From NCBI RefSeq assembly GCF_041435055.1, contig NZ_CP108002.1, positions 1,550,001-1,614,000 on the forward strand: DNA of 64,000 bases. Reading direction: 5' to 3'. Of the stretch, positions 19,419 to 61,255 are shown piece by piece. Origin of the DNA: Streptomyces sp. NBC_00341 (lineage in GTDB: Bacteria > Actinomycetota > Actinomycetes > Streptomycetales > Streptomycetaceae). The translations under genes and the position numbers were made by a program. The notes below the pieces were generated by a model. That model did not search any database, was not told where the DNA came from, and saw nothing but the letters and a program-made list of their open reading frames with translations. The first letter of the stretch is position 1, and every line of letters begins with the position of its first letter.

Positions 19419-20402
19419 ATGGAGCAGAGGCATCTCGGCCGCACCGGCCTTCGAGTGTCCCGGATCGGGCTCGGCACCCTCACCTGGGGCAGGGACACCG
19501 ACGAGCACGACGCTGCCGAGCAGCTCAAGGCCTTCTGGGAGGTGGGCGGCACCCTGGTCGACACGGCGGACGTGTACGGCGGCGGCGAGTCCGAGTACCT
19601 GCTCGGGCGGCTCGTCGAGGGGCTGGTGCCGAGGCGTGATCTGGTCATCGCCACCAAGGCCGGCAGCGTGCCCGACCCGTACCGCAGGTTCGACGGTTCA
19701 CGCGGGCATCTGCTGGCCGCCCTCGACGCCTCGCTGGCCCGGCTCGGCACGGACTACGTGGACCTGTGGCAGGTGCACGCCTTCGATCCGGTGACGCCGC
19801 TGGACGAGACGCTCCAGGCGCTGGACCTGGCGGTGTCCAGCGGGCGCGCCCGCTACGCGGGAGTGTCGAACTTCTGCGGCTGGCAGCTGGCCAAGGCCGC
19901 GACCTGGCAGCTGGCCGCCCCGGGCCTGCGGACCCGGCTGGCCAGTACGCAGATGGAGTACTCGCTGCTGCAACGGGGCGTGGAGCGCGAGGTGTTGCCG
20001 GCGGCGCTCGACCTCGGGGTGGGGCTGCTGCCGTCCTCGCCGCTGGGCCGGGGCGTGCTGACCGCCAAGTACCGCACCGGCACCCCGACGGACTCGCGCG
20101 GCGCCTCAGAGCTGCTGGCCCCGTTCGTGGAGCCGTACCTCGACGAGCCGGCGAGCCGCATCGTGGACGCCGTGGCGACCGCCGCCGACGGACTGGCCAC
20201 GACGCCGCTGCAGGTGGCGCTCGCCTGGGTGCGGGACCGTCCGGGCGTGGTCGCCCCGATCGTCGGCGCGCGCAACGCGCACCAGCTCACGGAGGCTTTG
20301 TCAGTGGAGACGCTTAGTCTTCCTGACGAGATCTGCCGCGCGCTCGACGATGTGTCGGCGCCCGTGCACCGCTATCCCGACCAGGACTGGAGCACGCTGT
20401 GA
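19419..20402 (+). CDS. Aldo/keto reductase
   Basis: A 327-residue AKR-superfamily oxidoreductase with a TIM barrel that uses NADPH. The tetrad is clear: Asp48 (LVDTADVYG), Tyr53, Lys80 (VIATKAG) and His120 (LWQVHAFD). The C-terminal part carries VGARNAHQLTEAL, the coenzyme-binding loop of AKRs. The ATG at 19419 begins the conserved MEQRHLGRTGLRVSRIGLGT. Its stop overlaps the start of the RecD-like gene as GTGA, so the two are translationally coupled. This pairing seems conserved in Streptomyces by my recollection, though no functional link is known. Substrate unknown. Confidence 0.88.
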   Translation: MEQRHLGRTGLRVSRIGLGTLTWGRDTDEHDAAEQLKAFWEVGGTLVDTADVYGGGESEYLLGRLVEGLVPRRDLVIATKAGSVPDPYRRFDGSRGHLLAALDASLARLGTDYVDLWQVHAFDPVTPLDETLQALDLAVSSGRARYAGVSNFCGWQLAKAATWQLAAPGLRTRLASTQMEYSLLQRGVEREVLPAALDLGVGLLPSSPLGRGVLTAKYRTGTPTDSRGASELLAPFVEPYLDEPASRIVDAVATAADGLATTPLQVALAWVRDRPGVVAPIVGARNAHQLTEALSVETLSLPDEICRALDDVSAPVHRYPDQDWSTL

Positions 20403-22717
20403 CTGCGCTTCCCCGGGGGGAAACCCCCGGCTCCCCGGCCACCGACGACGAAAGCGTCGTCGCGGACGTCTCCACGCCCTCCCCCGCGGAGGAGGCCGCC
20501 GCCGGGACCGACGAAGCGACCGAAGGCGCGGCTGACGACGCGGCCGACGAAGCCACCGACGGGGCAGCTGACGGCTCGTCGGCCGACGCGCCGGCCGACG
20601 ACGGTACCGACAGCGAGCCGGCCGACGGCGGAGGGACGGCCGGTGGGGCTGACGCGAGCGGCGACGGCGACACCGCCGCCGCCCCGGTCCTCTCCGAGGC
20701 GGAGGCGGAGCTGGCGGCCCAGCGCGAGCTGCTGGAGCGGATCGAGAAGCGCAAGGCCGAGAAGGACGGCCCCATCCCCGCCGGTACGAAGCTGAGCGGA
20801 CCGGCCGCCGATCTGCTGGCGGCCGTACGCGCCGTGGAGAGCGGCGAGAAGCCGGGCGCCGCGTTCTTCGACGCCCCCGCGCCCGCCACCCCCCGCAGGC
20901 CCGCTCCCGCCCCGGTCCGGGAGCGGGCCCCGGAGCCCGTCGGCGCGGACCGGGGCGCCGCCCCGGAGGCGGTCGCCGCCGTGGCCGCCGTGCTGGCCTC
21001 CGGCGGCGCCCCGGAGAGCCTGGCCGCCCCGGCCGCCGGGACGCTCGGCGCACACGCGGCCGACGTCCTGCGCGAGGACCCCTGGCAGCTGCTCGCCCTG
21101 CCCGGCGTCGGGCCCGAGCAGGCCGACGGCTTCGCACGGGCGCTGCTGGGCGCGGAGTGCGGCCCTGACGACGAGCGGCGCACCGACGCCCTGATCGGCT
21201 GGCTGCTGGAGCGCGCGGCGCTGCAGGGCCACACCGCGCTGGACTCCGCGGAGGTGCGCACCGCGCTCACCGGACGGTCGGTGAGCGACCCGGACGCCGC
21301 CGTACAGCACGCCGTCGCCGAGGGCGTCGTCCTGGTCTTCCAGAACGGGGCGGAGGACGGCGCGGAGGACGGGGCGGAGGAGGAAGCGCAGGAGGAGGGG
21401 CCGGAAGCCGCCGAGACGCCCGCAGAGGACCGGGAAGCGGGCCCGCAGGAGCCGGTGCAGGTGTTCCTGGGCCTCGACCGCTATGCCCTGGCGGAGGAGA
21501 GCCTCGCGGACGGGCTGGCCCGGCTGGTGAACGCGGTGGAGAAGGACGCCGACTGGACCGGGGCCGCCGAGTCGGCGCCCTCCCCCTCTGCCGCCGAGCT
21601 GATCCGTACCGCCGCCGCCCACGGGCTCGTCGCGCACACCGGCGGCGAGGCGGCGAGGGCCGAGCCCGCCGCCCTGATCGCCGCGGCGAGCGGCCTCGGC
21701 CTGCGGGCCCTGGGCACCACCCACAGCGCGGACGGCGCACGGCGGCTGGCCGAGGCGGTGGGCGACGCCTCGGCGGCCGTCACGCTGGCCGGGCTGCTCT
21801 CCGGCGCCGAGGGCCCGGGACGGGACGAGGAGGGGGCCCTCGCCGTCGACCTGCTCGTCGTGCTGGACGCCCCTCAGCTCGACGTCGAGACCGGCGCGAT
21901 GCTGGTGGAGGCCCTCGCGGACGGGGCCCGGCTGGTCCTCAGCGGCGATCCGGGCGTGCTGGGCTCAGCGGGTGCGGGCCGGGTCTTCGCCGATGTGCTG
22001 GCCGCCCGCGCGTGCCCGCAGGTCGTCTCCCGTACGCCGGATCCCGGTCCGATCGGGGAGCTGGTCTCCGGCATCGGCATCGGGGAGCTGAACCAGGTGG
22101 CGGCGCCGGGCCGGGAAGTGGTGATCGTGCCCGTGCGTGACGCGGGCGAGGCGGTGCACCGCACGGTGCAGCTGGTGGCCGACTCGGTGCCGCGCGCCAT
22201 CGGCGTCCCGTCGTCCGACACCCAGGTGATCACCGTGGGCCACGGCGGGTCCGCGGGCACCCGGGCGCTGAACGAGGCGCTCAAGCAGCGGCTCAACCCC
22301 GGCCCCGGCCGCTTCGGCGGCTTCGACCCCGGCGACCGGATCGCCCATGTCCCCGCACCGGGCCGGACGGTGCCCGGCGTGGTCGTCTCGGCCGACGCGG
22401 AGGGCCTGCACCTGGACTGTGCGGGGACCCCGGTCGTCGTGCCGCAGGAGCGGGTGGAGGCGTCCGTACGCCACGCCTGGGCGCTCAGCGCCCATCAGGC
22501 GGCCGGTATGCGGTGGCCCGCGGTGGTCGTCGTACTGCCGGGTGACGCCGCGCAGGGGCTCAGCCGCCCCTGGGTCTACACCGCCTTCGGCCGGGGCGAA
22601 CGGCACCTGTCCGTGGTCCACGGGGTGGATCAGGCGCTGCCGCGCGCGGTCGCCCAGTCCCCCGCGCAGGACCGCACCACCCGGCTGCGCACCCTGCTGG
22701 AGGCGTCCGAGGGCTGA
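20399..22717 (+). CDS. RecD2-like protein with helix-hairpin-helix domain and degenerate ATPase
   Basis: A 772-residue protein resembling RecD2/SF1 helicases but probably not an active motor. Residues 1-95 are an acidic, Ala-rich disordered region. A helix-hairpin-helix segment at about 226-250 (DPWQLLALPGVGPEQADGFARAL) matches RecD2. The helicase-like part follows: VDLLVVLDAPQLD (about 482-494) occupies the Walker B place but lacks the Glu, ARLVLSGDPGVLGSAGAGRVFADVL matches motif III, and HAWALSAHQAAGMRWPAVVVVLPG with RPWVYTAFGRGERHLSVV matches motifs V-VI of RecD. No GxxGxGKT Walker A is present anywhere. A second acidic low-complexity insert lies near 320-350. GTG start overlaps the upstream reductase stop. 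Likely a DNA-binding scaffold or regulatory pseudo-helicase (inference). Confidence 0.75.
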   Translation: MTALPRGETPGSPATDDESVVADVSTPSPAEEAAAGTDEATEGAADDAADEATDGAADGSSADAPADDGTDSEPADGGGTAGGADASGDGDTAAAPVLSEAEAELAAQRELLERIEKRKAEKDGPIPAGTKLSGPAADLLAAVRAVESGEKPGAAFFDAPAPATPRRPAPAPVRERAPEPVGADRGAAPEAVAAVAAVLASGGAPESLAAPAAGTLGAHAADVLREDPWQLLALPGVGPEQADGFARALLGAECGPDDERRTDALIGWLLERAALQGHTALDSAEVRTALTGRSVSDPDAAVQHAVAEGVVLVFQNGAEDGAEDGAEEEAQEEGPEAAETPAEDREAGPQEPVQVFLGLDRYALAEESLADGLARLVNAVEKDADWTGAAESAPSPSAAELIRTAAAHGLVAHTGGEAARAEPAALIAAASGLGLRALGTTHSADGARRLAEAVGDASAAVTLAGLLSGAEGPGRDEEGALAVDLLVVLDAPQLDVETGAMLVEALADGARLVLSGDPGVLGSAGAGRVFADVLAARACPQVVSRTPDPGPIGELVSGIGIGELNQVAAPGREVVIVPVRDAGEAVHRTVQLVADSVPRAIGVPSSDTQVITVGHGGSAGTRALNEALKQRLNPGPGRFGGFDPGDRIAHVPAPGRTVPGVVVSADAEGLHLDCAGTPVVVPQERVEASVRHAWALSAHQAAGMRWPAVVVVLPGDAAQGLSRPWVYTAFGRGERHLSVVHGVDQALPRAVAQSPAQDRTTRLRTLLEASEG

Positions 22718-23789: not shown

Positions 23790-24608
23790 CTAGGCGGCGG
23801 CCTTGCCGCGGCGGTACAGCACCGTGCCCGCGCCTGCCAGCAGCAGGCCCGCGCCGGCCGGGATCAGCAGGTCGAGCCCGCCCGATCCGGTGTGTGCGAG
23901 CTGCGGAGTGCCCTCGGGCATGCTCTGCGGCTCCGGCGCGTTCGGGATGGTGCGGGGCCCGGGTGCCGGCGGCGCCTTGGGGTGGGTGACCGGAGTCACC
24001 GGAGGAGCCACCGGAGGAGCGACCGGCGGCGTGACCTGCGGCGTGCTCTCGTTCTCGCAGTCGTTGCCGAAGCTGGGGTTCAGCAGTCCGACGATGTCGA
24101 TGCTGTTCCCGCAGGCGTTCACGGGGATGTCGATGGGGGCCTGGATCTGGTTGCCAGAGAGCAGACCGGGCGAGCCCTGCGCGTAGCCCTGTGCCGTTGC
24201 CCCGCCACCGTTGTCCGTGGGCACGGCACGGTGCTTGCCGGTGCCCGTCCGCGCCCCCTGGCCACGGTCCTGCGACGCGCGGCTGCCGGAGGCCCGGCTG
24301 TCCGCAGCGTGGCTGCCCGACCCAGTACCTGCGGACGATCCGGTCCGGCCTGCGGCCGCACCCCCAGAACCGTTTCCGCAGGCGTTCCCGAAGGTCGGAT
24401 TGATCAGTCCGACGACGCTCACGGAGTTACCGCAGACGTTCACCGGTACGTCGACCGGGATCTGTACCGAATTCCCTGAAAGCACCCCCGGGGAATTCGA
24501 CGCACCGCCGGACGCTCCCGCGTCGGCGTGCGCGTAACCGCCACTGAGCGCGAGTACGCCGCCCGCGGCCGCCATGGTGATCAGGCCTTTACGCGTGACC
24601 TGTCGCAT
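23790..24608 (-). CDS. chpC: Long chaplin with two chaplin domains and a sortase signal
   Basis: A 272-residue cell-wall-anchored chaplin that helps build the hydrophobic amyloid sheath of aerial hyphae. A signal peptide (about 1-28, ending AHA) is followed by two chaplin domains. The first is near 40-78 (SPGVLSGN, PVNVCGN, PTFGNACGN; Cys59 and Cys77) and the second near 146-184 (SPGLLSGN, PVNACGN, NPSFGNDC). A Ser/Gly/Arg linker separates them. Then come a Pro-rich wall-spanning stretch (TPPVAPPVAPP), the sorting signal LAHTG at 237-241, a membrane helix and a basic RRGK tail. LAxTG is the form used by class E sortases. The start at 24608 has AGGAAA upstream. Pairing with chpH matches S. coelicolor SCO1674-SCO1675 (from memory). 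Confidence 0.93.
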   Translation of the reverse strand: MRQVTRKGLITMAAAGGVLALSGGYAHADAGASGGASNSPGVLSGNSVQIPVDVPVNVCGNSVSVVGLINPTFGNACGNGSGGAAAGRTGSSAGTGSGSHAADSRASGSRASQDRGQGARTGTGKHRAVPTDNGGGATAQGYAQGSPGLLSGNQIQAPIDIPVNACGNSIDIVGLLNPSFGNDCENESTPQVTPPVAPPVAPPVTPVTHPKAPPAPGPRTIPNAPEPQSMPEGTPQLAHTGSGGLDLLIPAGAGLLLAGAGTVLYRRGKAAA

Positions 24609-26640: not shown

Positions 26641-26728
26641 GTCCGGGTGGCGGAATGGCAGACGCGCTAGCTTGAGGTGCTAGTGCCCTTTATCGGGCGT
26701 GGGGGTTCAAGTCCCCCCTCGGACACCA
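26641..26728 (+). tRNA. tRNA-Leu (anticodon GAG)
   Basis: An 88-nt gene with encoded CCA. The acceptor stem is GTCCGGG/CTCGGAC (one G-U pair), the D-arm follows TGGCGGAATGGCAGACGC, the anticodon stem-loop is CTAGC-TTGAGGT-GCTAG with GAG, a long variable arm (TGCCC/GGGCG) marks it as a class II tRNA, and the T-arm is GGGGG-TTCAAGT-CCCCC. CCA is at 26726-26728. A -10-like TATGGT lies upstream near 26595. A 22-bp terminator stem follows 15 nt downstream. Confidence 0.96.
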
Positions 26729-26742
26729 TGGCCGATCGACCA

Positions 26743-26789
26743 AACAGAGCCGGTCAAAGCGACACTTTGTCGCTTTGACCGGCTCTGTT
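26743..26789 (+). terminator. Very strong terminator after tRNA-Leu
   Basis: A perfect 22-bp inverted repeat with loop CTT (arms 26743-26764 and 26768-26789) begins 15 nt after the tRNA. TGTTGTGTG follows. The stem is unusually AT-rich for this genome (it contains GGTCAAAGCGACA). Confidence 0.9.
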
Positions 26790-26805
26790 GTGTGCACCGG
26801 ACCGT

Positions 26806-26838
26806 GATCCGCCTCCCCCGGTTCGCGGGAGGCGGATC
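26806..26838 (-). terminator. Terminator of the large helicase gene
   Basis: GATCCGCCTCCC (26806-26817) pairs perfectly with GGGAGGCGGATC (26827-26838) over a 9-nt loop, 34 nt past the helicase stop on the minus strand. It stands back to back with the tRNA terminator. Confidence 0.8.
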
Positions 26839-26871
26839 TGTCTGTGCCGGTCGGCGGGGACCAGCGCAGGG

Positions 26872-29800
26872 TCACTCTCCGTCCGGCGGCCAGGTCTCGC
26901 GGTCACTGACGTGGTCGAACTCCGTCAGTTCGCGAGCGAGGACGTCGAAATGGGCGAGCGGGGCCCACAGGTCGCGCTCACCGATGACGTAGAGGCGGCG
27001 CTTGGCGCGGCTCGCGGCCACGTTGAGCAGATGCGGGCTGCCGGCCGCCCACTCGCGTGCTCCGCGACGGCCGCCGCCGAGCACGAGGACGACGACATCG
27101 GCTTCCTTGCCCTGTGCGCGGTGGACCGTGGCGCAGCGTTCTTCCAGGAGTTCAGCGGTCCAGCCTGCGCGGTCGCGGCAGACCTTCTTGCACTCGGCGA
27201 CGAGGGCACGGAACGGGGCGATGACCCGTATGCGCTCGACGCCGACGCCGTTGCGCTCCAGGAGATCGAGGACGAACTCGAACGCACGCCGGTCGCGTAC
27301 GCCCCACGGGGCGTCGGCCGGGCGGGCGGAGTCATCGGTGTTGAGCCAGCGGCTGGGCAGCAGCCCGTCCCGTTCGCTGTCGGGGAACGCCTGTCGCGCG
27401 GTGCCGTGGACCATGAGGCCGCCGTACGCGACCTCATTGCTGACGGTGAACATCGGCTCCTCGCAACGGCGGTGGACGCGCAGCGGTGACCCCACCCAGA
27501 CGTGGCCGTCGTCGCTGTCCGGTGCCGGCAGGTAGGTGCCGTAGCGGTTGGTCCGGTCGGCCACGGCCTGGGCCGAGGTGGCCGAGGGCAGCCACCGCTC
27601 GTCGACGCCGTAGGCGCGCAGCAGCCTGCGCTGCAGAGCGGTGGGCATGGTGACGACGGGCTCGAGCTGGAGCGGATCGCCGACCAGCACGGCACGGCGG
27701 GCACGCCACAGCGCGCCCACGGCGGCCTGTGGTGTGGCCTGCCCGGCCTCGTCGACGAGCAGCCAGCCGATCGACTCCCGGCCGAGGCGCGCGAACATGC
27801 TGCCGACGGAGGAGAACGTGGTGGACACTACGGGCACCACGAGGAACAGGGTCTGCCAGGCATGCTCGACCTCTTCGTCGGGCAGCGGCCCATTGGTTCC
27901 CGCCATCAGCTCCATGAGTACCTGGAGATTGCCCCGGACCTTTTGCGCGGCCCCGGCCACAAAGGCGCGGTGCAGGTCGAGAGCGCGCAGGAACAGGTCG
28001 CTGCGCGCGGTGGACCATTCCTCGTCCGACCAGGGAGAGCCGAGTTCCTGCACGGCCTCGTCGTCATGCTGCCAGCCGAGCGGCAGTGAGGGCAGAGCCG
28101 CAGCCGCCCATTGCAGCGCGTTGTGGCGCCGGTTGAGCTCGGTCGTGGCGGCCCGCAGGTCGCCCAAGGCCGTGTCGACGGCCTGCCGGGCCTGCCGCAG
28201 GGCAGTGTCCGCCGCGGCCTGCCGGGTGCGCGCGGTCCGTTCGTGCGCGCGGGCTGCGGTGAGACCGGCGGCCGCCTCTTCGGCTGCGGTGGCGGACCGC
28301 GAGATCCGGCCTACGGCCAGGGACTCGGCGTGCACGGCTGCGGCGACCCGCGCCACGGAGTCGTCGAGGGCGGCGCGGTGCTGGAGGAGCAGTTCCGTGA
28401 TCTCGGCCTGGGTTCGCTCCTGCCGGTGTTGGGCGGCCTGCCGGTCGGCAGAGCTCTGGAGCAGGCGCCGCAGCCCGCCGCGCAGGCCCGGCTCGACGGT
28501 TTGTGGTGCGTCCTGGCGGGAAGTGAGCGCGGTGACGTAGTCGCGGTGGTGCGCGGCCAGTTCGCGGGCGGCCGACACATCCGCGCGGGCGGCGGCCAGT
28601 TCCTGCCGGGCTCGTGGCACGTGCTCGGTCGCCGCCCGGTGCCGGGCCTCGGCGGCCGCTGTGGCGCTCTGCGCTTCTTCGGTGACGCCGGCGGCCCGCT
28701 CCACGGCGGCCGCCGCGGCGACGACCTTCCGGTCCGCGCGGGGTACGGCGGCTTCCAGGTCCGCGATCCGCTGCCCGGCCGACGGGGAGTCGACGGCCGC
28801 CAGTTCGGAGGCCAGCCGGGCACGCTCGACGCGCAGGCGCTCGACCTCGTCCTGGGCGGTGCGGAACGCGAGGACCGCGTCGGACCACGACGGCACGGGC
28901 TCGACGGGCCCGGCCGGTGCGCCGCCGGCCGCCGAGGCGGCGGGGCGCCGGCCGCCGGGCGGAATCCTCGGCGGGATCCAGTCACTCAGAACGGCCCGCA
29001 TACCGCGCAGTGGCGGCCGTCCCGCCTCGGACCGGGCGTCGGCCTCCCTCTCGGGCAGCCTGCCCCACCAGAACCGGTCGCCGAACTCCTTGCGGTTGGT
29101 CTTGTTTCCGAGCACCGCCGCGACCAGCCCCCACGCGGGGCCGCCGAGGAGGGCCGAGGCGAGGTCGGAGAAGTGGTCGGGTCCGCCGTGCCAGTGCTCA
29201 TCGAGCGCGCTGAGGCCGGGCAGTTCAGCGGTGATGTTCTCGACCGCACCGTTGTTGGAGGAGGCGACCACGATCTCGAAACCGGTCAGCCGGGGGTCGA
29301 GCCTCGACACGAACCGCGTGTGCGTGCCCTGGCGGTCCTTGCCCCGCCATGCCGGGCCGGTGAATGCCTGTCCGGGCCGGTCGAACGTGGCCAGTACCGC
29401 CGCCCGCTCGACCACCAGTGCGGCGACCAGGTCGCGCAGCATCGTCGTCTTGCCCGTGCCTGGCGGGCCGTTCACCGAGAACATCCCGCCCCCGGTACCC
29501 GCGCGGTCCGCGAGCATCCGGTCGACCGCGAACTGCTGGCTCAGCGCGAGCGGGAACCGCGCCGGTGCGGGCCAGCGCCCCGCCGGAACCAGCTCCGGAC
29601 CCACCCCGGCCAGGACGACTCCGCGCTCCTGGCGCACATCCGTCCGCGCCCCCACGGCTAGGGCATCGTGCTCGGTCAGATACGCGTCCAGAGCCGGGCC
29701 GATCCCCTTGCCGACCGCCCCTGCCACCCGGTCGAGATCAGGAGGAAGCAGACTGTTCAGGAAGGGGGCCGCGGCGGCCACCTTCGCCTGCGGGTCCCTG

Positions 29801-30840
29801 GGCCGGTGGACGAGCCTGCTGCGCACCCGGACCACTCGGGGCCGCAGGCGGTCCCGCACCCCGCACAGGTCGGCGATCTGCGCGGTGAGGGCGACGAGAT
29901 CGGCGAACCCGAGCGCGCGGGGGCCGGACCCGCCCTCGCGCGCCTCCGGCGTGTCCGCGGAGCCGGCCCGCACCGGCCCGGGAACGGTTCCGGCGCTCTC
30001 CGGATCCCCGGGCTCCCCCTCGTTCGCTACGAGCCGACGGGCCGCCGCCCAGTCGGCGGCGCGGCTCACCAGGGGTTCGGCCGCGCCCTGCAAGGCGGCG
30101 CCGGCGACCTCGCCGAACAGGGCCTCGACCGCGCCGACGGCGGCGCCGCCCAGGATTTCGCCGAGCAGCCGCTGCCAACTCGCGCGGTCGGAGCCGGCCG
30201 CGGTTCCCGGCTCACGGCCGGAGCCCGGCCGCTGCTCGGACGTCGTGCCAGGGGGTGGGGCGGCGGAGCCGTAGGGAATCGTGGTGGCTGTCAGTTCGTC
30301 GATCGCCGTGCCGAACGCGTCGTCGAGGTCCTCGAATCCGTCCAGCCAACCCCGCGCGGAGGGTCCCGGATCGAAGAGGCGGCCGGTCGCCCAGGCACAG
30401 GCGGAGATCACGGACGTGTCCTCGACCGGTCGCCCCTCTTCATCCAGGATCAGGGCGAACATCGCGCTCTCGCCCGCCAGCGTCAGCTCGGACTGCGGCA
30501 CACCGGGATCCGGATCGGTCCCCGCGGGGAGTACCGCGATCATGGCCTGCCGGAGCAGTTCCAGTTCGAAAATCCCGCAGTAGATCTCGTGACGCCACAT
30601 CCGGCCGCGGGGCGCCCGGCGCGCGCCTGTGTCCGGGTGGCCGCCGTCCCACGGCAGGAGCGGCGGCGCCTGTCCCGGCAGCGGCGTCAGATCGACGATG
30701 TACTCGTCGCCCGGCCCGGACCGTGCGGCGGAGCGCCGTCGGGGCAGTGCCGGAATGCTCGGCGGACCGAACAGCTCGATGGCGCGCCAGCACTCCAGCA
30801 GTGCTTCCCGGTGGTGGTACCGCCCCTGTCCGCTCCGCAC
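26872..30840 (-). CDS. Large UPF1/DNA2-like superfamily 1 helicase with coiled-coil insertion
   Basis: A protein of about 1,322 residues. The N-terminal 450 residues hold no domain I can name; they include a Gly/Ala-rich segment (LLGEILGGAAVGAVEALFGEVAGAALQGAAEPL) that may touch membrane. The helicase core begins with Walker A NGPPGTGKTT near residue 455 and IVVASSNNGAVENI (motif Ia). A Glu/Arg/Ala-rich coiled coil of about 250 residues (roughly 650-905) interrupts the core. Then come motif II LLVDEAGQATPQ (near 1020), motif III GDPLQLEPVV, motif V CATVHRAQGKEADVVVLVLGG and motif VI LLNVAASRAKRRLYVIGE (near 1270). GTG at 30840 has GGGGGCAGG upstream; a GTG at 30939 has no ribosome-binding site. 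The gene is single, flanked by hairpins, next to a tRNA. RNA/DNA helicase activity is expected; a defence role is speculation. Confidence 0.82.
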   Translation of the reverse strand: MRSGQGRYHHREALLECWRAIELFGPPSIPALPRRRSAARSGPGDEYIVDLTPLPGQAPPLLPWDGGHPDTGARRAPRGRMWRHEIYCGIFELELLRQAMIAVLPAGTDPDPGVPQSELTLAGESAMFALILDEEGRPVEDTSVISACAWATGRLFDPGPSARGWLDGFEDLDDAFGTAIDELTATTIPYGSAAPPPGTTSEQRPGSGREPGTAAGSDRASWQRLLGEILGGAAVGAVEALFGEVAGAALQGAAEPLVSRAADWAAARRLVANEGEPGDPESAGTVPGPVRAGSADTPEAREGGSGPRALGFADLVALTAQIADLCGVRDRLRPRVVRVRSRLVHRPRDPQAKVAAAAPFLNSLLPPDLDRVAGAVGKGIGPALDAYLTEHDALAVGARTDVRQERGVVLAGVGPELVPAGRWPAPARFPLALSQQFAVDRMLADRAGTGGGMFSVNGPPGTGKTTMLRDLVAALVVERAAVLATFDRPGQAFTGPAWRGKDRQGTHTRFVSRLDPRLTGFEIVVASSNNGAVENITAELPGLSALDEHWHGGPDHFSDLASALLGGPAWGLVAAVLGNKTNRKEFGDRFWWGRLPEREADARSEAGRPPLRGMRAVLSDWIPPRIPPGGRRPAASAAGGAPAGPVEPVPSWSDAVLAFRTAQDEVERLRVERARLASELAAVDSPSAGQRIADLEAAVPRADRKVVAAAAAVERAAGVTEEAQSATAAAEARHRAATEHVPRARQELAAARADVSAARELAAHHRDYVTALTSRQDAPQTVEPGLRGGLRRLLQSSADRQAAQHRQERTQAEITELLLQHRAALDDSVARVAAAVHAESLAVGRISRSATAAEEAAAGLTAARAHERTARTRQAAADTALRQARQAVDTALGDLRAATTELNRRHNALQWAAAALPSLPLGWQHDDEAVQELGSPWSDEEWSTARSDLFLRALDLHRAFVAGAAQKVRGNLQVLMELMAGTNGPLPDEEVEHAWQTLFLVVPVVSTTFSSVGSMFARLGRESIGWLLVDEAGQATPQAAVGALWRARRAVLVGDPLQLEPVVTMPTALQRRLLRAYGVDERWLPSATSAQAVADRTNRYGTYLPAPDSDDGHVWVGSPLRVHRRCEEPMFTVSNEVAYGGLMVHGTARQAFPDSERDGLLPSRWLNTDDSARPADAPWGVRDRRAFEFVLDLLERNGVGVERIRVIAPFRALVAECKKVCRDRAGWTAELLEERCATVHRAQGKEADVVVLVLGGGRRGAREWAAGSPHLLNVAASRAKRRLYVIGERDLWAPLAHFDVLARELTEFDHVSDRETWPPDGE

Positions 30841-30941
30841 TGCCCTGCCCCCTGTCCCGCGCGCGGCCTCCGGCCGCTCCCATTCGCTGACCGGCTGTCG
30901 GTCGAATCTACCGGACCCCAACGGGGCGGGTCCCGGCACGT

Positions 30942-30978
30942 TGTGGCGCGGTCAATCACGCGACGCGGCCGCGCCACA
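30942..30978 (-). terminator. Inverted repeat between the dienelactone hydrolase and helicase genes
   Basis: TGTGGCGCGG (30942-30951) pairs with CCGCGCCACA (30969-30978) over 17 nt. It begins 14 nt past the hydrolase stop on the minus strand, so it probably terminates that transcript. It could also be an operator for the helicase gene, whose start is 100 nt downstream. Confidence 0.6.
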
Positions 30979-30992
30979 GCCGTACCGGAGAC

Positions 30993-31730
30993 TCAGCCGG
31001 CGGGCAGGGAACGCTCCAGGAGGGGCAGCAGGCGGTCCCAGTGGAGCTGCAGCCCGGAGGCGCTGAACGCGTCGGTGTCGGACATGGTGAAGCCGTGGAC
31101 GGTGTCCGGGTAGATCTCGGAAGTGAAGCCGGCTCCCGCGGCGTCCAGGGACCGGTTCAGCTCGTCCAGGCCCTCGGGCGTGATGTCGCCCTCGGCGTGG
31201 CCGAGGTGGACCTGAGCGGTGACCGTGGAGAAGAGTTCCGGACCGTCGGCGCCCACGGGGGCGTGGAATCCGGCGACGGCGGCCACCTTGTCCGGGTAGG
31301 CCGCGGCGGTGCGCATCGCGAGCAGTCCGCCTATGCAGTATCCGGTCACCGCGACCGGGCCGTCACTCACCTCGGGGCGGCCGGCGAGGAACCCCAGGTA
31401 GGCGTCGGCGTCGCTGCGCACGCGTTCGGCGGTGTGCGCCCCGATCAGGGGCATCACCTGGGCCATGACCCCGGAGCGGGCCTCTTCCCCGATGTACTCG
31501 GGAAGTTCGATGACCGGGTTGGGGCCGTGCCGGTAGAAGACGTTCGGGACGAGCACGTAGTACCCGTGTCCGGCCAGTTCGGCTGCCATGTCCCGCAGCA
31601 CGGGCCTGATGCCGAAGCCGTCCGGGTACATCAGCACCCCGGGGTGCCGCCGGCCGCTGTCGGGAAAGACGGCGAAGGCGTCGGCCAGGCCGTCCGCGGT
31701 GGGGATCTGAAGCGTGGTGGTGGTGGGCAT
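30993..31730 (-). CDS. Dienelactone hydrolase family protein
   Basis: A 245-residue alpha/beta-hydrolase of the dienelactone hydrolase family. The nucleophile is Cys132 in GYCIGG, with Asp182 (HAEGDITPEG) and His212 (DTVHGF) completing the triad. Such enzymes open lactones such as dienelactone in chloroaromatic breakdown, but most genomic copies have unknown substrates. The ATG at 31730 has AGGAG 8 nt upstream. That ribosome-binding site lies inside a perfect 11-bp hairpin (31738-31783), and an 18-codon reading frame lies further upstream (31850-31906). This suggests translational control. It is transcribed away from the beta-galactosidase gene. Confidence 0.87.
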   Translation of the reverse strand: MPTTTTLQIPTADGLADAFAVFPDSGRRHPGVLMYPDGFGIRPVLRDMAAELAGHGYYVLVPNVFYRHGPNPVIELPEYIGEEARSGVMAQVMPLIGAHTAERVRSDADAYLGFLAGRPEVSDGPVAVTGYCIGGLLAMRTAAAYPDKVAAVAGFHAPVGADGPELFSTVTAQVHLGHAEGDITPEGLDELNRSLDAAGAGFTSEIYPDTVHGFTMSDTDAFSASGLQLHWDRLLPLLERSLPAG

Positions 31731-56649: not shown

Positions 56650-56742
56650 GGAGCGGTTACGGGACCGGCGACGGACCGCGTCAGCGCCCGTCGGCCCCAG
56701 GAGCGGTTGGCGGCGGACCGCGTCAGTGCTCGTCGGCCCCGA
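56650..56742. repeat. Tandem imperfect duplication covering the 3' end of the HEAT gene
   Basis: Copy A (56650-56699) and copy B (56700-56742) both read GGAGCGGTT, a short variable part, then CGGACCGCGTCAG, GTCGGCCCC. Copy B contains the last codons and stop of the HEAT-repeat gene (stop at 56723 on the minus strand). Copy A carries a second stop-like remnant downstream of it. Confidence 0.65.
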
Positions 56743-59700
56743 TCCGGTCCAGCAGGTCCGTGTACAGGGGCCGCCGGTCGGGCCGGGCGCGGGCGGCGGC
56801 GTGCCGGAGCGCGGGGACCGCCGCCCCGCCCAGCCCGGCCAGCGCCTCGGCCGCCGCGTCGCGCACGGTCGCGTGCGGGTGCCGGAGCAGTCCGGTGACG
56901 GCGGGGAACGCCGGCTCCCAGCCCGCCCGGCAGAGCGTGCGCAGGGCCATGCGCACCACGTCCGGCCGGGGGTCGTCCAGCAACTGCCCGGTGCGGCGCA
57001 GGTACTCCGTCCGGTCGAGCATCGCGCGCGCGGTGCGGTGGGCCCGCAGCCGGACCCGGGGCCTGGGGTGCGTCAGCAGCTCACCGAGCAGGTCGACCAG
57101 GCGCGGGTCCCGGTCCGGTCCGGGGCCGGTGTGCGCCTCGGACAGCTCGGTGAGCGCCCGGCAGATCTGCTCGGGGGCGCCGGTCGCGGCCAGGTCCATC
57201 AGCTCACGCCGGGTTCGGGGGCGCCGCGTCGCGGCGGGACGGGCCGCGTCCCGGTCGCGGAGTGCGGCCAGGGCAGCCGCGTCCTGCCGTCCGGCGTCCG
57301 GCCCCCGCAACGGCCCGTCCACCAGGACGATCCGGTCCGCGAGTTCGTCGCGCCCTTCGGTACGCAGCCGGTGGCGGGCCCGCGTGAGCGCCGGGGTGCG
57401 CAGGAGCCGGCGACCGGTGAGCAGGTCCAGGAATCCCCAGGCCCCGGCGTCGAGCCGGTCGCCCAACGCTTCGGCCAGCGCGTCGGCGGGATGGGCGCGG
57501 AGCACGTCGGTGACGGCCCCGGCCGAGGCGGGCGGCGTGTGCTCCCACCACTCCAGCAGCAGCGGGACGAGCCGTTGCCGCTCCTGCGGTTCGAGCCCCG
57601 CGGCCGCTTCCGCCACCCGGTCGCGCCGGATCGCGTCGCCCCGGAGTTCGCTCACACTGATGGCGCCGAGCGCGCCGCCCACGTCGGCTGCGGCGGGCCG
57701 GGCGATCCGTCCGGTCAGGTACGCGCGCAGCACCGCCAGTCGGGCCTCCGGCTCCGGCCACCGCGCCAGCGCCTCGGCCGCGGTCTGCCGGCGCCCCGCC
57801 TCCGCCGAGCCGAGCATGGTGAGCAGCCGCTCCCGCAGGGCGGCGGAGCGCGGCTGGTCCAGGTCGTCGGCGTGGACCCGGCGCGGGGCCGGCTCCGGTG
57901 CGCGGGCGCTCTCCGCGAGGGTCCAGGGCGGCGCGTCCAGGGGCTGGAGCCGGGTCATCCAGTCGACGAGGGCGGACCGGACCCCGGGGGCGGCGCCGTT
58001 GTGCGCCTCGATCAGGGCGGCCAGCCGGATCCGGGAGGGGACGGTGCCGTCGTCCGTGCGGCGGAACTCCGCCAGTGCGCCCGGCTCCCGGACCGCGTCG
58101 GCCAGCGCGGACCGCCAGGCCCGTGCCGCGTCCGGCCCGGGTGCGGTGGCGGGCGCGGGCTCCGTTACCGCGAAGGCCTCCCGGAGCACGTCGGTCGCGG
58201 CCCGCGCGGGCTCTGCGCAGAGCCGGGCCTCCGCGAGGGCGCGGTCGAGGTCGGCGCGGACCGGTATCGCGCCGAGGCGGCGCAGCAGTGTCAGCGTGGA
58301 GCGGCCCGGCACCGCCGGTGCGGGGGCCAGGGCGCGGACCGCGGTGACGGCGGCCGGTCTCCCGGTGGCCGCCAGCAGCGGCGCCGCCGCTTCGAGTACG
58401 CCGATCAGCGCGTGCCGGTCCGCGTCGCGGGCGTCGGCCAGCGCGTCCAGCAGGAGCGGGAACGACCGGGCGAGCACGGTGAGTTCCGGGCGGCTCAGGG
58501 ACCAGGAACAGAGCCTCAGCGTGAACCGCATGACCGGGGCCCCGGTCCCTGGACGCGAGCCCGCGAGCGCGAGCCAGTCGGCCAGCATCGGGCGCAGCCG
58601 TTGGGCGCGCAGGGAACCCAGCGGCTCGTCCCGCGCCACGAGGCGCAGTGCGGTCCCCTGGTCCCAGCCCCCGGTCACCAGGGCCTCGATGTCGCGGTCC
58701 GTCCCGGCCTCCGCGGCGGGGTCTGAGGCCGGGACGGTGATCCCGTGCGCGGTCATGGCCGGCGCCAGATCCGTCACGGAGCCGTCGGCCAGTGCGACCG
58801 CGCGGGCGGCCACCAGGGTGAGTAGCGGGTACGCCACCGGGGACCGCTGCTCGTCCAGTGCGCGCACCGAGCGCGCGGTGACCACACCGTGCAGGCCCAC
58901 CAGCAGCCGTCGCCGGGTGGCGTCGTCCTGGCTGTGCTCGGCGGCGGCGACCAGGGTGGCCGGGTAGGCGTCGCGGAGGACGGCGCGCAGGGCCGCGACG
59001 AGGGACTCGCGCAGACCGGGGTTGCCGTCCTGCCCGAGCATGGCCAGGAGCTTCGGGACGGCCTGCGGTGAGCCCGCCCTGACCAGCGCATCGGCCGCGG
59101 TCTTCCTGATGTTCATGTTCGGGTGGTCGAGGCAGGCGGAGATCGCGCCGCTCGCCCAGTGGGCCCGGACCTGGCCCAGGGCGAGCAGGGCCTGCCGGAC
59201 GGTCTGGATGTCCTGGGCCCTGGTCAGGGCGGTCAGGGACGCCGAGAGTGCCTGGGTGTCCTCCCCGGTGGCGTCGTGGGCGAGCAGGGCGATGACGTGC
59301 TTGCGTACGTGCCGGTCGCGGTGGCGCAGCAGTCGGTACACCCGTGCGCGGGTGCCCGTCCAGTCCGCCCTGAGCAGCAGTTCGAGCAGGACCACCCGCT
59401 CGTCGTCGGAGCGTGCGGGGCCGTCGAGGAGGTCCAGTGCCGTGCTCGCGACCAGGGCGTGCCCGGCCTCCTGGGCGTCCGTGGCGTCGAGCAGGCAGAC
59501 GGGCCGGATCGCGCCCCGCTCGTGGAGCCGGCGGCCGAGGGCGGTCATGGCGTCCAGGACGTCCTGCGGCACCACGGGCTCACCGGCCGGCTGCCCGTGC
59601 TCCCCGGTCCGGGGCGCCGCGTCCGGGCTCCGCGAAGCGGCCAGGTCCGCCACGATGCGCGACAGCAGGTCCGCGATGACCGGGAGGGTCGCGGCGTCGC

Positions 59701-61255
59701 CGTGGGCGGCGAGCCGGCACAGCGCCGCCACCGGCGCGTCCGGGTCCAGGTGGGAGCTGAGCAGCGCCAGTTCGGCGGCGTCCGGTCCGCCGAGTCCGGC
59801 CGCGACGCGCGGCGGCAGATCGACGGGGTCGAGCCGGGCGAGCAGGGCGCGGCGCAGGGCCGGATCCCGATTCAGCTGCCAGAGGAGTTCGAGGGCCCGG
59901 CCGCGCACGGGGCGCAGGTGGGGCGCCGTCCCGCCGGTGCTGAGGCCCAGCCCTTCGCGCAGGGCCCGTACCGTCGGTTCGCCGCCGATCGCCTCCAGGG
60001 TGTCCAGGGCAGCGGCCGGTGCCGAGGGAAGCAGGGCGATGACGGCTTCTTCCGCGTCTGTGTGGCGCAGGGCGCGGATCGCTTCGAGGAAGGGCACGGG
60101 TGAGGGCGCGGAGGGCAGTAGGCGGGTGACGGCGTCCCCGGCCGGGAGGTCGCCCGCCCCCTGTCCGGCCAGCGCGACGAGCAGGGCGAGCCGTCGCGGC
60201 CAGGCCGGATCCGCGGCCGGGGCGTTTGTCAGTACCTTGAGCGCCTCGTTCCGGGAGGTGTAGAGGACGGTCGCCACGTCGCGGGCCGGGATGGAGTGAT
60301 CGGCGAGGGCGAGGCCGACGAGGGCGGGGACCTGGTCGTCGTCCGGGAAGTGCCCCCGGCGGTGGAGCCCGCGCAGGCAGGCCACGGCCGGGCCGCCGAG
60401 CAGCAGCGGATCGCGGGTGGCGGCGGCCGTCAGGGCGCCGATGTCGTCGCGGTCCGCCAGTTCACCGAGCAGTTCCATCCCGCTCCGGCGCAGGCCGGGC
60501 GTCAGCCGGGGGTCCTCGACGACCCGGCGCAGCAGTTCGCGGTGGCCGTGGCGGGCGGCGGCCACGAGGGCGGCTTCGGCCACCGGGGGCCGTTCCCGTA
60601 CCGGCTCCGGGCCCAGGAACGGGGCGAGGAGGCCGGGCGGCAGCGGGGCCGCCGCCGCCCATGGTTCGGCGAGTGCGCCGAGCGCGCCCGCGACGACCGG
60701 GGCGCTGTCCGCCGCCAGCAGTCCGATCAGCTTCTCCCGGACCGTCGCCGGGGCCAGCAGTCCGGTGTGCAGTGCCTCGCGGGCCAGTCGCAGCGCCTCG
60801 GCCCTGAGCACCGGATCGCCGCTGTCCGCCAGCTCGTCCACCAGCGGGCCCGGCCGGTGCGTGACGCTGATGTCCAGCTCGCGCACGGCCTGGTACAGGA
60901 GCTCGCCCGGGGTCTCGTCGCGGAGGACGGCCGGGTCGTGGAGCACATCGGCGCGCAGCCAGGCGATGCGTACCGTCGCCGGAAGGTGGCCGGCCGCGCG
61001 CCACCGGGGCCGGGGGCGGTCCGTCAGCCGGTGGCCGAGCCGCTCGTAGAGCCGGGCCAGCAGGAGGTCGGCCTCCGGCGGTCCGGTGAGGGACTGGGGC
61101 AGCAGTCCGGCGAGTGTGTCCATCTCCCCGTCGGACGGGGGGCGGGTGGCGACGAGTTCGGTCAGCCGGACCAGTGCCGTGTGACGCTGCCCGGGGTCCT
61201 CCTGCCCGATCTCTCGTCCCAGGGTGTGCAGCTCTTGTCCGGCCGGCGTCCGCAT
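56723..61255 (-). CDS. Giant HEAT-repeat protein
   Basis: A 1,510-residue protein made almost wholly of Leu/Ala-rich helical hairpins of the HEAT type. Clear repeats include VYRLLRHRDRHVRKHVIALLAHD, AISACLDHPNMNIRKTAADALVRAGSPQAVPKLLAML (near 680-750) and PAVTGLLRHPHATVRDAAAEALAGLGGAAVPAL at the C-terminus (near 1,460-1,490). No signal peptide, membrane helix, nucleotide-binding loop or catalytic motif is seen. Such solenoids are scaffolds for proteins or nucleic acids. The ATG at 61255 lacks a ribosome-binding site; TAGCAT lies 6 nt upstream and TTGGTG 19 nt before that, a leaderless promoter. It stands alone between the acyl-CoA dehydrogenase gene and a small gene, and its partner is unknown. 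Confidence 0.8.
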   Translation of the reverse strand: MRTPAGQELHTLGREIGQEDPGQRHTALVRLTELVATRPPSDGEMDTLAGLLPQSLTGPPEADLLLARLYERLGHRLTDRPRPRWRAAGHLPATVRIAWLRADVLHDPAVLRDETPGELLYQAVRELDISVTHRPGPLVDELADSGDPVLRAEALRLAREALHTGLLAPATVREKLIGLLAADSAPVVAGALGALAEPWAAAAPLPPGLLAPFLGPEPVRERPPVAEAALVAAARHGHRELLRRVVEDPRLTPGLRRSGMELLGELADRDDIGALTAAATRDPLLLGGPAVACLRGLHRRGHFPDDDQVPALVGLALADHSIPARDVATVLYTSRNEALKVLTNAPAADPAWPRRLALLVALAGQGAGDLPAGDAVTRLLPSAPSPVPFLEAIRALRHTDAEEAVIALLPSAPAAALDTLEAIGGEPTVRALREGLGLSTGGTAPHLRPVRGRALELLWQLNRDPALRRALLARLDPVDLPPRVAAGLGGPDAAELALLSSHLDPDAPVAALCRLAAHGDAATLPVIADLLSRIVADLAASRSPDAAPRTGEHGQPAGEPVVPQDVLDAMTALGRRLHERGAIRPVCLLDATDAQEAGHALVASTALDLLDGPARSDDERVVLLELLLRADWTGTRARVYRLLRHRDRHVRKHVIALLAHDATGEDTQALSASLTALTRAQDIQTVRQALLALGQVRAHWASGAISACLDHPNMNIRKTAADALVRAGSPQAVPKLLAMLGQDGNPGLRESLVAALRAVLRDAYPATLVAAAEHSQDDATRRRLLVGLHGVVTARSVRALDEQRSPVAYPLLTLVAARAVALADGSVTDLAPAMTAHGITVPASDPAAEAGTDRDIEALVTGGWDQGTALRLVARDEPLGSLRAQRLRPMLADWLALAGSRPGTGAPVMRFTLRLCSWSLSRPELTVLARSFPLLLDALADARDADRHALIGVLEAAAPLLAATGRPAAVTAVRALAPAPAVPGRSTLTLLRRLGAIPVRADLDRALAEARLCAEPARAATDVLREAFAVTEPAPATAPGPDAARAWRSALADAVREPGALAEFRRTDDGTVPSRIRLAALIEAHNGAAPGVRSALVDWMTRLQPLDAPPWTLAESARAPEPAPRRVHADDLDQPRSAALRERLLTMLGSAEAGRRQTAAEALARWPEPEARLAVLRAYLTGRIARPAAADVGGALGAISVSELRGDAIRRDRVAEAAAGLEPQERQRLVPLLLEWWEHTPPASAGAVTDVLRAHPADALAEALGDRLDAGAWGFLDLLTGRRLLRTPALTRARHRLRTEGRDELADRIVLVDGPLRGPDAGRQDAAALAALRDRDAARPAATRRPRTRRELMDLAATGAPEQICRALTELSEAHTGPGPDRDPRLVDLLGELLTHPRPRVRLRAHRTARAMLDRTEYLRRTGQLLDDPRPDVVRMALRTLCRAGWEPAFPAVTGLLRHPHATVRDAAAEALAGLGGAAVPALRHAAARARPDRRPLYTDLLDRIGADEH

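Follow-up and report, generated by a model that had tools for sequence, protein, structure and literature searches.

Two described systems come closest to the gene that we discuss here. One is Mokosh type II, a single-gene system whose protein is MkoC. According to the passages of PMC10952713 that deal with it, MkoC features a PLD-like nuclease domain. The other is CnuH of the CoCoNuTs, which, as far as the relevant sections of PMC11090510 describe it, joins a UPF1-like superfamily 1 (SF1) core, in which a large helical, coiled-coil element follows Walker A, to extra N-terminal domains; its authors predict that CoCoNuT systems target RNA. In this study we analysed a stretch of 64,000 nucleotides from Streptomyces sp. 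NBC_00341 (the window) and found that it carries a gene at 26872..30840, on the minus strand, for a protein of this general build, a predicted UPF1-like SF1 helicase. We lean towards reading it as an immune helicase related in type to Mokosh and CoCoNuT CnuH, mobile and in most cases encoded by a gene on its own, a defensive role being suggested by its mobility, context and kinship.

Comparison with known systems

How close is the kinship? The window helicase matches positions 379-950 of the 1136 of the PADLOC model of MkoC (PDLC03924) with 186 bits and an E-value of 3.6e-55, and 37 of the 37 family members scanned match that model at 1e-20 or better. Judged by its range, the alignment takes in the UPF1-like core and the coiled-coil region; it ends at 950 of 1136 and covers helicase residues 727-1295, leaving a conserved N-terminal domain (the N-domain) outside. 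No PLD-like domain appears among the Pfam matches of any of the 37 at 1e-4, the near-identical database protein P0002 included, and it is for this reason that we do not file the helicase as Mokosh. Likewise, Pfam found neither of the domains of the Mokosh type I gene pair, PLD-like and NERD, in the helicase itself or in the 7 flanking window proteins.

With CnuH, taken from the part of its published description cited above, the window helicase shares the UPF1-like core and the coiled-coil insertion after Walker A; among the same 7 flanking proteins, Pfam detected neither a McrB-like GTPase/McrC pair nor the downstream winged helix-turn-helix nuclease CnuE. Hhe and PDC-S37 are also large SF1 helicase proteins of candidate defence loci, but their similarity to the window helicase is weak and confined to short stretches (Hhe 4.8e-4, PDC-S37 4.7e-6). 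Eukaryotic UPF1 and IGHMBP2 differ from it by its 264-residue coiled-coil arm, its other N-terminal region and its patchy, accessory distribution. No description of the helicase family was found by title or abstract opening in the open-licence PMC literature. We place it as a new variant among the coiled-coil UPF1-like conflict helicases, with a conserved N-domain and a conserved coil tip.

Architecture of the helicase

The gene encodes 1322 amino acids, with a GTG start at 30840 and a stop codon ending at 26872. Start and length are identical in P0002; an alternative in-frame GTG at 30939 would give a 1355-amino-acid version, on which the Pfam, NCBIfam and PADLOC match positions were originally numbered. 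Walker A (NGPPGTGKTT, residues 457-466) lies at 29443..29472 (-), and the remaining helicase core, residues 916-1322 at 26875..28095 (-), carries motifs II (LLVDEAGQATPQ), III (GDPLQLEPVV), V (VHRAQGKEAD) and VI (NVAASRAKRRLYV). Motifs I, II, III, V and VI start at residues 457, 1027, 1054, 1239 and 1273, and all of motifs I, Ia, II (DEAG), III, V and VI are intact. Only helicase domains pass the Pfam cut-offs (AAA_11 7.5e-18, AAA_12 3.8e-9, Viral_helicase1 1.3e-10). These motifs, together with the modelled fold, indicate a UPF1-like SF1 helicase, presumably an ATP-driven motor.

The nearest solved folds found by Foldseek are IGHMBP2, UPF1, Sen1, Dna2 and Aquarius (E 1e-9 to 1e-5 for the UPF1 group), UPF1/IGHMBP2 and not UvrD/Rep being closest. 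Such company would suit an accessory RNA-surveillance or ribosome-rescue factor, a functional analogue of UPF1/SMUBP2 working on stalled or aberrant transcripts, and CnuH, which has a UPF1-like core and a helical insert as well, is part of systems for which PMC11090510 predicts an RNA target. However, the gene is rare and patchily distributed, and several loci have split or frameshifted copies, unlike a housekeeping function; Pfam scans of the window helicase and of family members recognised no RNA-decay domain. We find a surveillance role quite improbable.

The arm itself interrupts RecA domain 1 after Walker A/motif Ia and ahead of motif II; it spans residues 652-915 (264 residues) in the AlphaFold2 model, at 28096..28887 (-). 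It is modelled as two long helices, residues 686-777 (92) and 797-915 (119), joined by a conserved tip with a P-G turn (residues 777-797, 28450..28512 (-)). HelD is one of the SF1 motors with coiled-coil arms, and an accessory DNA-repair or transcription-coupled motor of the HelD or RecD type, acting on stalled polymerases or forks, might be built in this way. HelD is a Foldseek match, a weak one (6zca, E 3.2e-3), but it falls below the UPF1 group, among the coiled-coil matches, and the mobility of the family differs from the pattern of a repair gene; of the alternatives, this is the one to which we give least credence.

About 430 N-terminal residues lie outside every family match: the best stretches of the Pfam, NCBIfam and PADLOC matches all begin at or after about residue 434. 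Within this region we distinguish three parts. The N-domain proper, residues 9-183 at 30292..30816 (-), carries the motifs WRAxExFxP, PW, WxHxVYxGVF, SxCAWAxGR and WLDGF and has no Pfam match, nor was a fold match found. A variable linker follows (residues 184-305, 29926..30291 (-)), with a predicted local distance difference test score (pLDDT) of about 30-40 and mostly low conservation, and then a second conserved block (residues 306-450, 29491..29925 (-)) that runs into LALSQQFAV, a Q-motif-like stretch preceding Walker A. The N-terminal model has a mean pLDDT of 58, and a search of the PDB with this low-confidence model gave no significant match; the SmpB-like OB fold and the RelE-like domain, N-terminal features of CnuH, were looked for through that same model.

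These results bear out much of an earlier, sequence-only reading of this DNA. It had called the open reading frame at 26872..30840, with exact coordinates, and an intact SF1 core, of which all five quoted motifs are present; its coiled coil of 250 residues corresponds to the 264-residue arm of two long helices. The N-terminal part of 450 residues that it described as uncharacterised is indeed so in Pfam, NCBIfam and PADLOC (over about 430 residues), and the profile and structure searches that it proposed returned neither a Pfam nor a fold match.

A scattered and mobile gene

Close orthologues of the helicase, 71-100% identical over the N-terminal 280 amino acids, occur in 7 of 392 genomes of the genus, the window's genome included. 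Any match to these 280 residues was found in 27 of the 392, the 20 beyond the close orthologues being 30-45% identical and some of them short; the survey scored six candidates per genome and its counts are therefore a lower bound. A phylum search with the N-domain alignment, an insensitive one in which 13 candidates were scored per genome, gave a match in the window's genome only, among 296. Several homologues are split or frameshifted (L012, L055, L056, L064), as expected for a dispensable gene.

The surroundings of the gene change as well. Among 12 orthologue loci (the window and 11 others) no neighbour gene is shared within 8 kb (thresholds: identity >=45%, coverage >=60%). A DNA query comprising the adjacent M20 peptidase gene and the tRNA was matched in 121 of 121 genomes, but the match ended before the tRNA in 10 of the listed best matches (the one in G087 is weak); the universal element is the M20 peptidase gene, not the tRNA linkage. 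We followed the flank beyond the tRNA in 17 other genomes, out of 19 regions fetched after the M20 gene (L101 was dropped at a contig end, L103 as rearranged and lacking the tRNA). Called genes lie between the M20/tRNA side and the conserved pseudouridine-synthase, MBL and ADH genes in 6 of the 17, and the helicase was seen there in 0 of the 17, one of which (G083) has a gap of N. That genome was dropped as a clean empty site, its interval from tRNA to beta-galactosidase being a run of N.

Among eight orthologue loci from genus genome contigs, only that of S. parvus has a tRNA in the fetched DNA, and it is again tRNA-Leu(gag). The window's genome has two identical tRNA-Leu(gag) genes and the helicase lies 3' of copy 1; in S. 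parvus it is copy 2 that has the helicase on its 3' flank, and a gene for a GmrSD_N protein (Pfam 3.8e-28) separates the two. The M20/tRNA block of S. parvus is located elsewhere, so that its helicase-side tRNA is the second copy. In the window's genome, copy 2 adjoins a 434-amino-acid gene that by eye resembles the one at this place in S. parvus. Each of the two tRNA-Leu(gag) genes thus has the look of a cargo site. The second copy stands at G000:C1:7653376-7653472 (L142 13383-13470), and its 3' flank differs between the window's genome and S. parvus.

The helicase gene is accessory and scattered, and we read it as horizontally mobile: the comparison of relatives suggested by the sequence-only reading found it patchy, with close copies in 7 of 392 genomes, and not in the same place across nearly all Streptomyces.

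Defence-type neighbours and a nuclease partner

To what genes does the family keep company? We collected 236 proteins of >=100 amino acids within 6 kb of 28 chromosomal family members and, as a control, 237/238 proteins from 20 loci ~60-410 kb off, on the same contigs as N-domain matches. Neighbour genes were called with our own codon-usage caller, which misses atypical genes. Restriction, CRISPR, Hhe or GmrSD-type genes lie within 6 kb at 6 of the 28 loci. In S. parvus (L007) the helicase stands beside a GmrSD-like HEC-05 gene (4.6e-47; Pfam GmrSD_N); in S. lavendulae (L013 4681-19084), HsdS, HsdM, MTase_II and a phage integrase surround the orthologue. L049 has Cas7e, Cas5e and MTase_I near the helicase, and L061 a REase_II (type II restriction endonuclease) match. 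At L050 (3043-11483) a PDC-S37/Hhe large SF1 helicase protein is encoded ~120 bp upstream on the same strand, and L047 (3628-15316) has one that is 69% identical to it, with members of 1619-1628 amino acids. By eye, L047 and L050 share a malate-synthase-like site that is common to L052 and L057 too. The neighbour at L054, guessed by eye to be AbiEii-like, matched nothing and was rejected.

No restriction-modification, CRISPR, Hhe or HEC-05 family is among the 28 of 36 control families listed for the 20 control loci, which gives a one-sided Fisher p of 0.031, or 0.053 with L047 and L050 counted once. This neighbourhood tally, another proposal of the sequence-only reading, thus yields an excess of defence genes near family members that is suggestive, for a category defined post hoc.

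A second line of evidence comes from plasmids. In three plasmid records (A. pusense, A. leguminum and X. hortorum) the gene directly after the helicase is annotated as a restriction endonuclease and looks Mrr-like by eye. In A. pusense (L149 5946-11215) the helicase, which has an N-domain match of 2.8e-13 and the tip ARPGFFARLFG, ends at the start base of a 567-amino-acid annotated restriction endonuclease, the C-terminal part of which by eye resembles a PD-(D/E)xK nuclease of the Mrr type. The tandem recurs in A. leguminum, and in X. hortorum (L156 3995-9904) helicase (N-domain 1.4e-9), endonuclease and NYN-domain genes are consecutive. The Agrobacterium/Xanthomonas tandems are possible two- or three-gene restriction systems, and the pairing of helicase and nuclease points to nucleic-acid restriction. 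In P. aeruginosa an annotated restriction endonuclease is ~5 kb distant. Homologues of the Mrr-like protein (E < 1e-50) occur in 10 of 15 family-bearing versus 4 of 15 other genomes, a difference that is confounded by kinship (two-sided p 0.066). On an Agrobacterium vitis plasmid (L153 1-2859), upstream of a family helicase, an S8 peptidase stands beside an ATP-binding protein, an arrangement reminiscent of the ietAS defence pair.

Carriage by plasmids

Relatives are frequent on plasmids: tblastn at E <= 1e-5 found them in 689 of 72,556 plasmid records, 548 of them Klebsiella and 598 conjugative, with no match spanning 80% of the query. Of 5426 E. coli genomes, 15 have a Klebsiella allele, every time on a plasmid. 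When the Klebsiella and Azospirillum rows are left out of the N-domain profile, it detects 5 of the 5 N-terminal-bearing proteins among seven tested, the other two being an endonuclease and a C-terminal half; both Klebsiella types are matched (2.4e-24 and 3.2e-22). The N-domain profile also matches 10 of 10 further plasmid proteins (E <= 1e-7), two of which were profile members; among the ten, the Bosea protein does not show the simple tip pattern, and the Xanthomonas protein does not show the exact Walker A string. Viral contigs gave 3 pattern stretches and no encoded relative, and 50,697 phage records gave 4 matches, all below 60% identity. Against a Burkholderia member, 4409 proteins of 7994 scored candidates reach E <= 1e-3, a number that may include other UPF1-like helicases.

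This carriage raises the question of whether the helicase serves the mobile elements themselves, as a helper in conjugative transfer, establishment, replication-fork or R-loop clearing or plasmid competition, with the chromosomal copies being leftover cargo. In the two Klebsiella conjugative plasmids that we read, the gene lies inside the conjugation region, with a traG-type gene on one side and a gene for a lytic transglycosylase on the other; the Ancylobacter copy stands among rep genes, and integrases lie near the L009, L013 and L152 copies. Yet the Streptomyces and Kitasatospora chromosomal loci have, by eye, no obvious conjugation or replication genes, and elsewhere the family occurs near restriction-modification, CRISPR or Mrr-type genes. 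Defence genes, too, are typical plasmid cargo. All in all, a helper function strikes us as unlikely, though less so than the surveillance or repair roles.

Weighing an immune function

Several observations weigh against the immune helicase that we favour. The position of the Klebsiella copies fits a conjugation-linked role. A Pfam scan of the 7 window proteins that flank the helicase shows no defence-type neighbour, and 22 of the 28 chromosomal loci have no identified defence-type neighbour. The neighbour category was set after the family-side matches had been seen, ten proteins were picked by eye on the family side only, and the families compared are those listed, 25 of 156 on the family side against 25 of 33 in one control scan and all 3 in a second. 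Control loci do match other PADLOC models (PDC-M07A at 5.9e-50, PD-T4-6 at 1.6e-37, mad6, MzaA and MkoA, and also mad1, mad2 and models for kinases or oxidoreductases). MkoC is matched by the Hhe-like neighbour of L050 too (2.1e-19), and similarity to MkoC may be general among UPF1-like helicases. An Mrr-like gene after the helicase is absent from 13 of the 15 annotated plasmid regions fetched, and the A. pusense Mrr-like protein has 0 matches in the window's genome; the helicase thus does not need that partner. Finally, the 3' end of the tRNA is not repeated elsewhere in the window. We claim no att site and have dropped integration by tRNA recombination.

The sequence-only reading had noted that large SF1 helicases of this type occur among phage-defence and RNA-surveillance proteins. 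Mobility, context and kinship now lend some support to the first of these, for a role that we still infer.

How would an immune helicase of this kind, surveying nucleic acid, work? The gene would be horizontally mobile cargo parked beside tRNA-Leu(gag). Its SF1 core, to judge from motifs and model, would use ATP and move along single-stranded RNA or DNA, while the N-domain and the coiled-coil arm with its tip may recognise a feature of the nucleic acid of an invading phage or plasmid, or of a phage protein bound there, or else dimerise the enzyme. Recognition would then set the motor to strip or unwind replication or transcription intermediates of the invader. In some Agrobacterium and Xanthomonas relatives, the downstream Mrr-like nuclease could cut the nucleic acid laid bare by the helicase; for the window's genome, where a homologue of this nuclease was not found, the damage would fall to the motor alone or to some other nuclease of the host.

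The locus in the window

The tRNA-Leu(gag) gene occupies 26641..26728 (+), with the helicase located 3' of it, at a position where the gene content differs among genomes; beyond the helicase 3' end come this tRNA and then the M20 peptidase gene. Two strong, terminator-like hairpins lie between tRNA and helicase, one after the tRNA (26735..26800, no strand assigned; -42.7 kcal/mol, z -9.0) and one past the helicase stop (26800..26850 (-); -31.1 kcal/mol, z -4.9). Upstream of the helicase, a weaker hairpin at 30935-30992 (z -2.8) is followed by a dienelactone hydrolase gene (30993-31730, Pfam DLH) on the same strand, at a distance of 152 bp. The earlier picture of a lone gene between two hairpins at a tRNA therefore holds, with one qualification on the upstream side, where a same-strand gene lies near, beyond the weaker hairpin.

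Elsewhere in the window, 23793-24572 (-) encodes a protein with two ChpA-C (chaplin) stretches, 20399-22717 (+) a 772-amino-acid protein, RecD-like by eye with a P-loop that is not clear, and 56723-61255 (-) an open reading frame of 1510 amino acids, function not recognised, that is present in G078 too (74%).

Implications

The family looks large, it occurs on many Klebsiella plasmids, and its N-terminal region lies outside the best Pfam, NCBIfam and PADLOC matches. A bolder proposal, possible although we think it unlikely, is that it represents a widespread, hitherto undescribed, nuclease-free immune helicase. In this single polypeptide, the N-terminal part would be a sensor or effector domain of a new type and, together with the 14-18 nm coiled-coil arm and its conserved tip, would let a UPF1-type motor recognise and dismantle invader RNA or DNA alone, the tandem with an Mrr-like gene being an elaborated form. 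If the helicase is immune in function, it would bear on whether cells can be protected by a UPF1-like motor that has no linked nuclease, and also on how the Mokosh and CoCoNuT helicases work and on the repeated recruitment of UPF1-like helicases to immunity.

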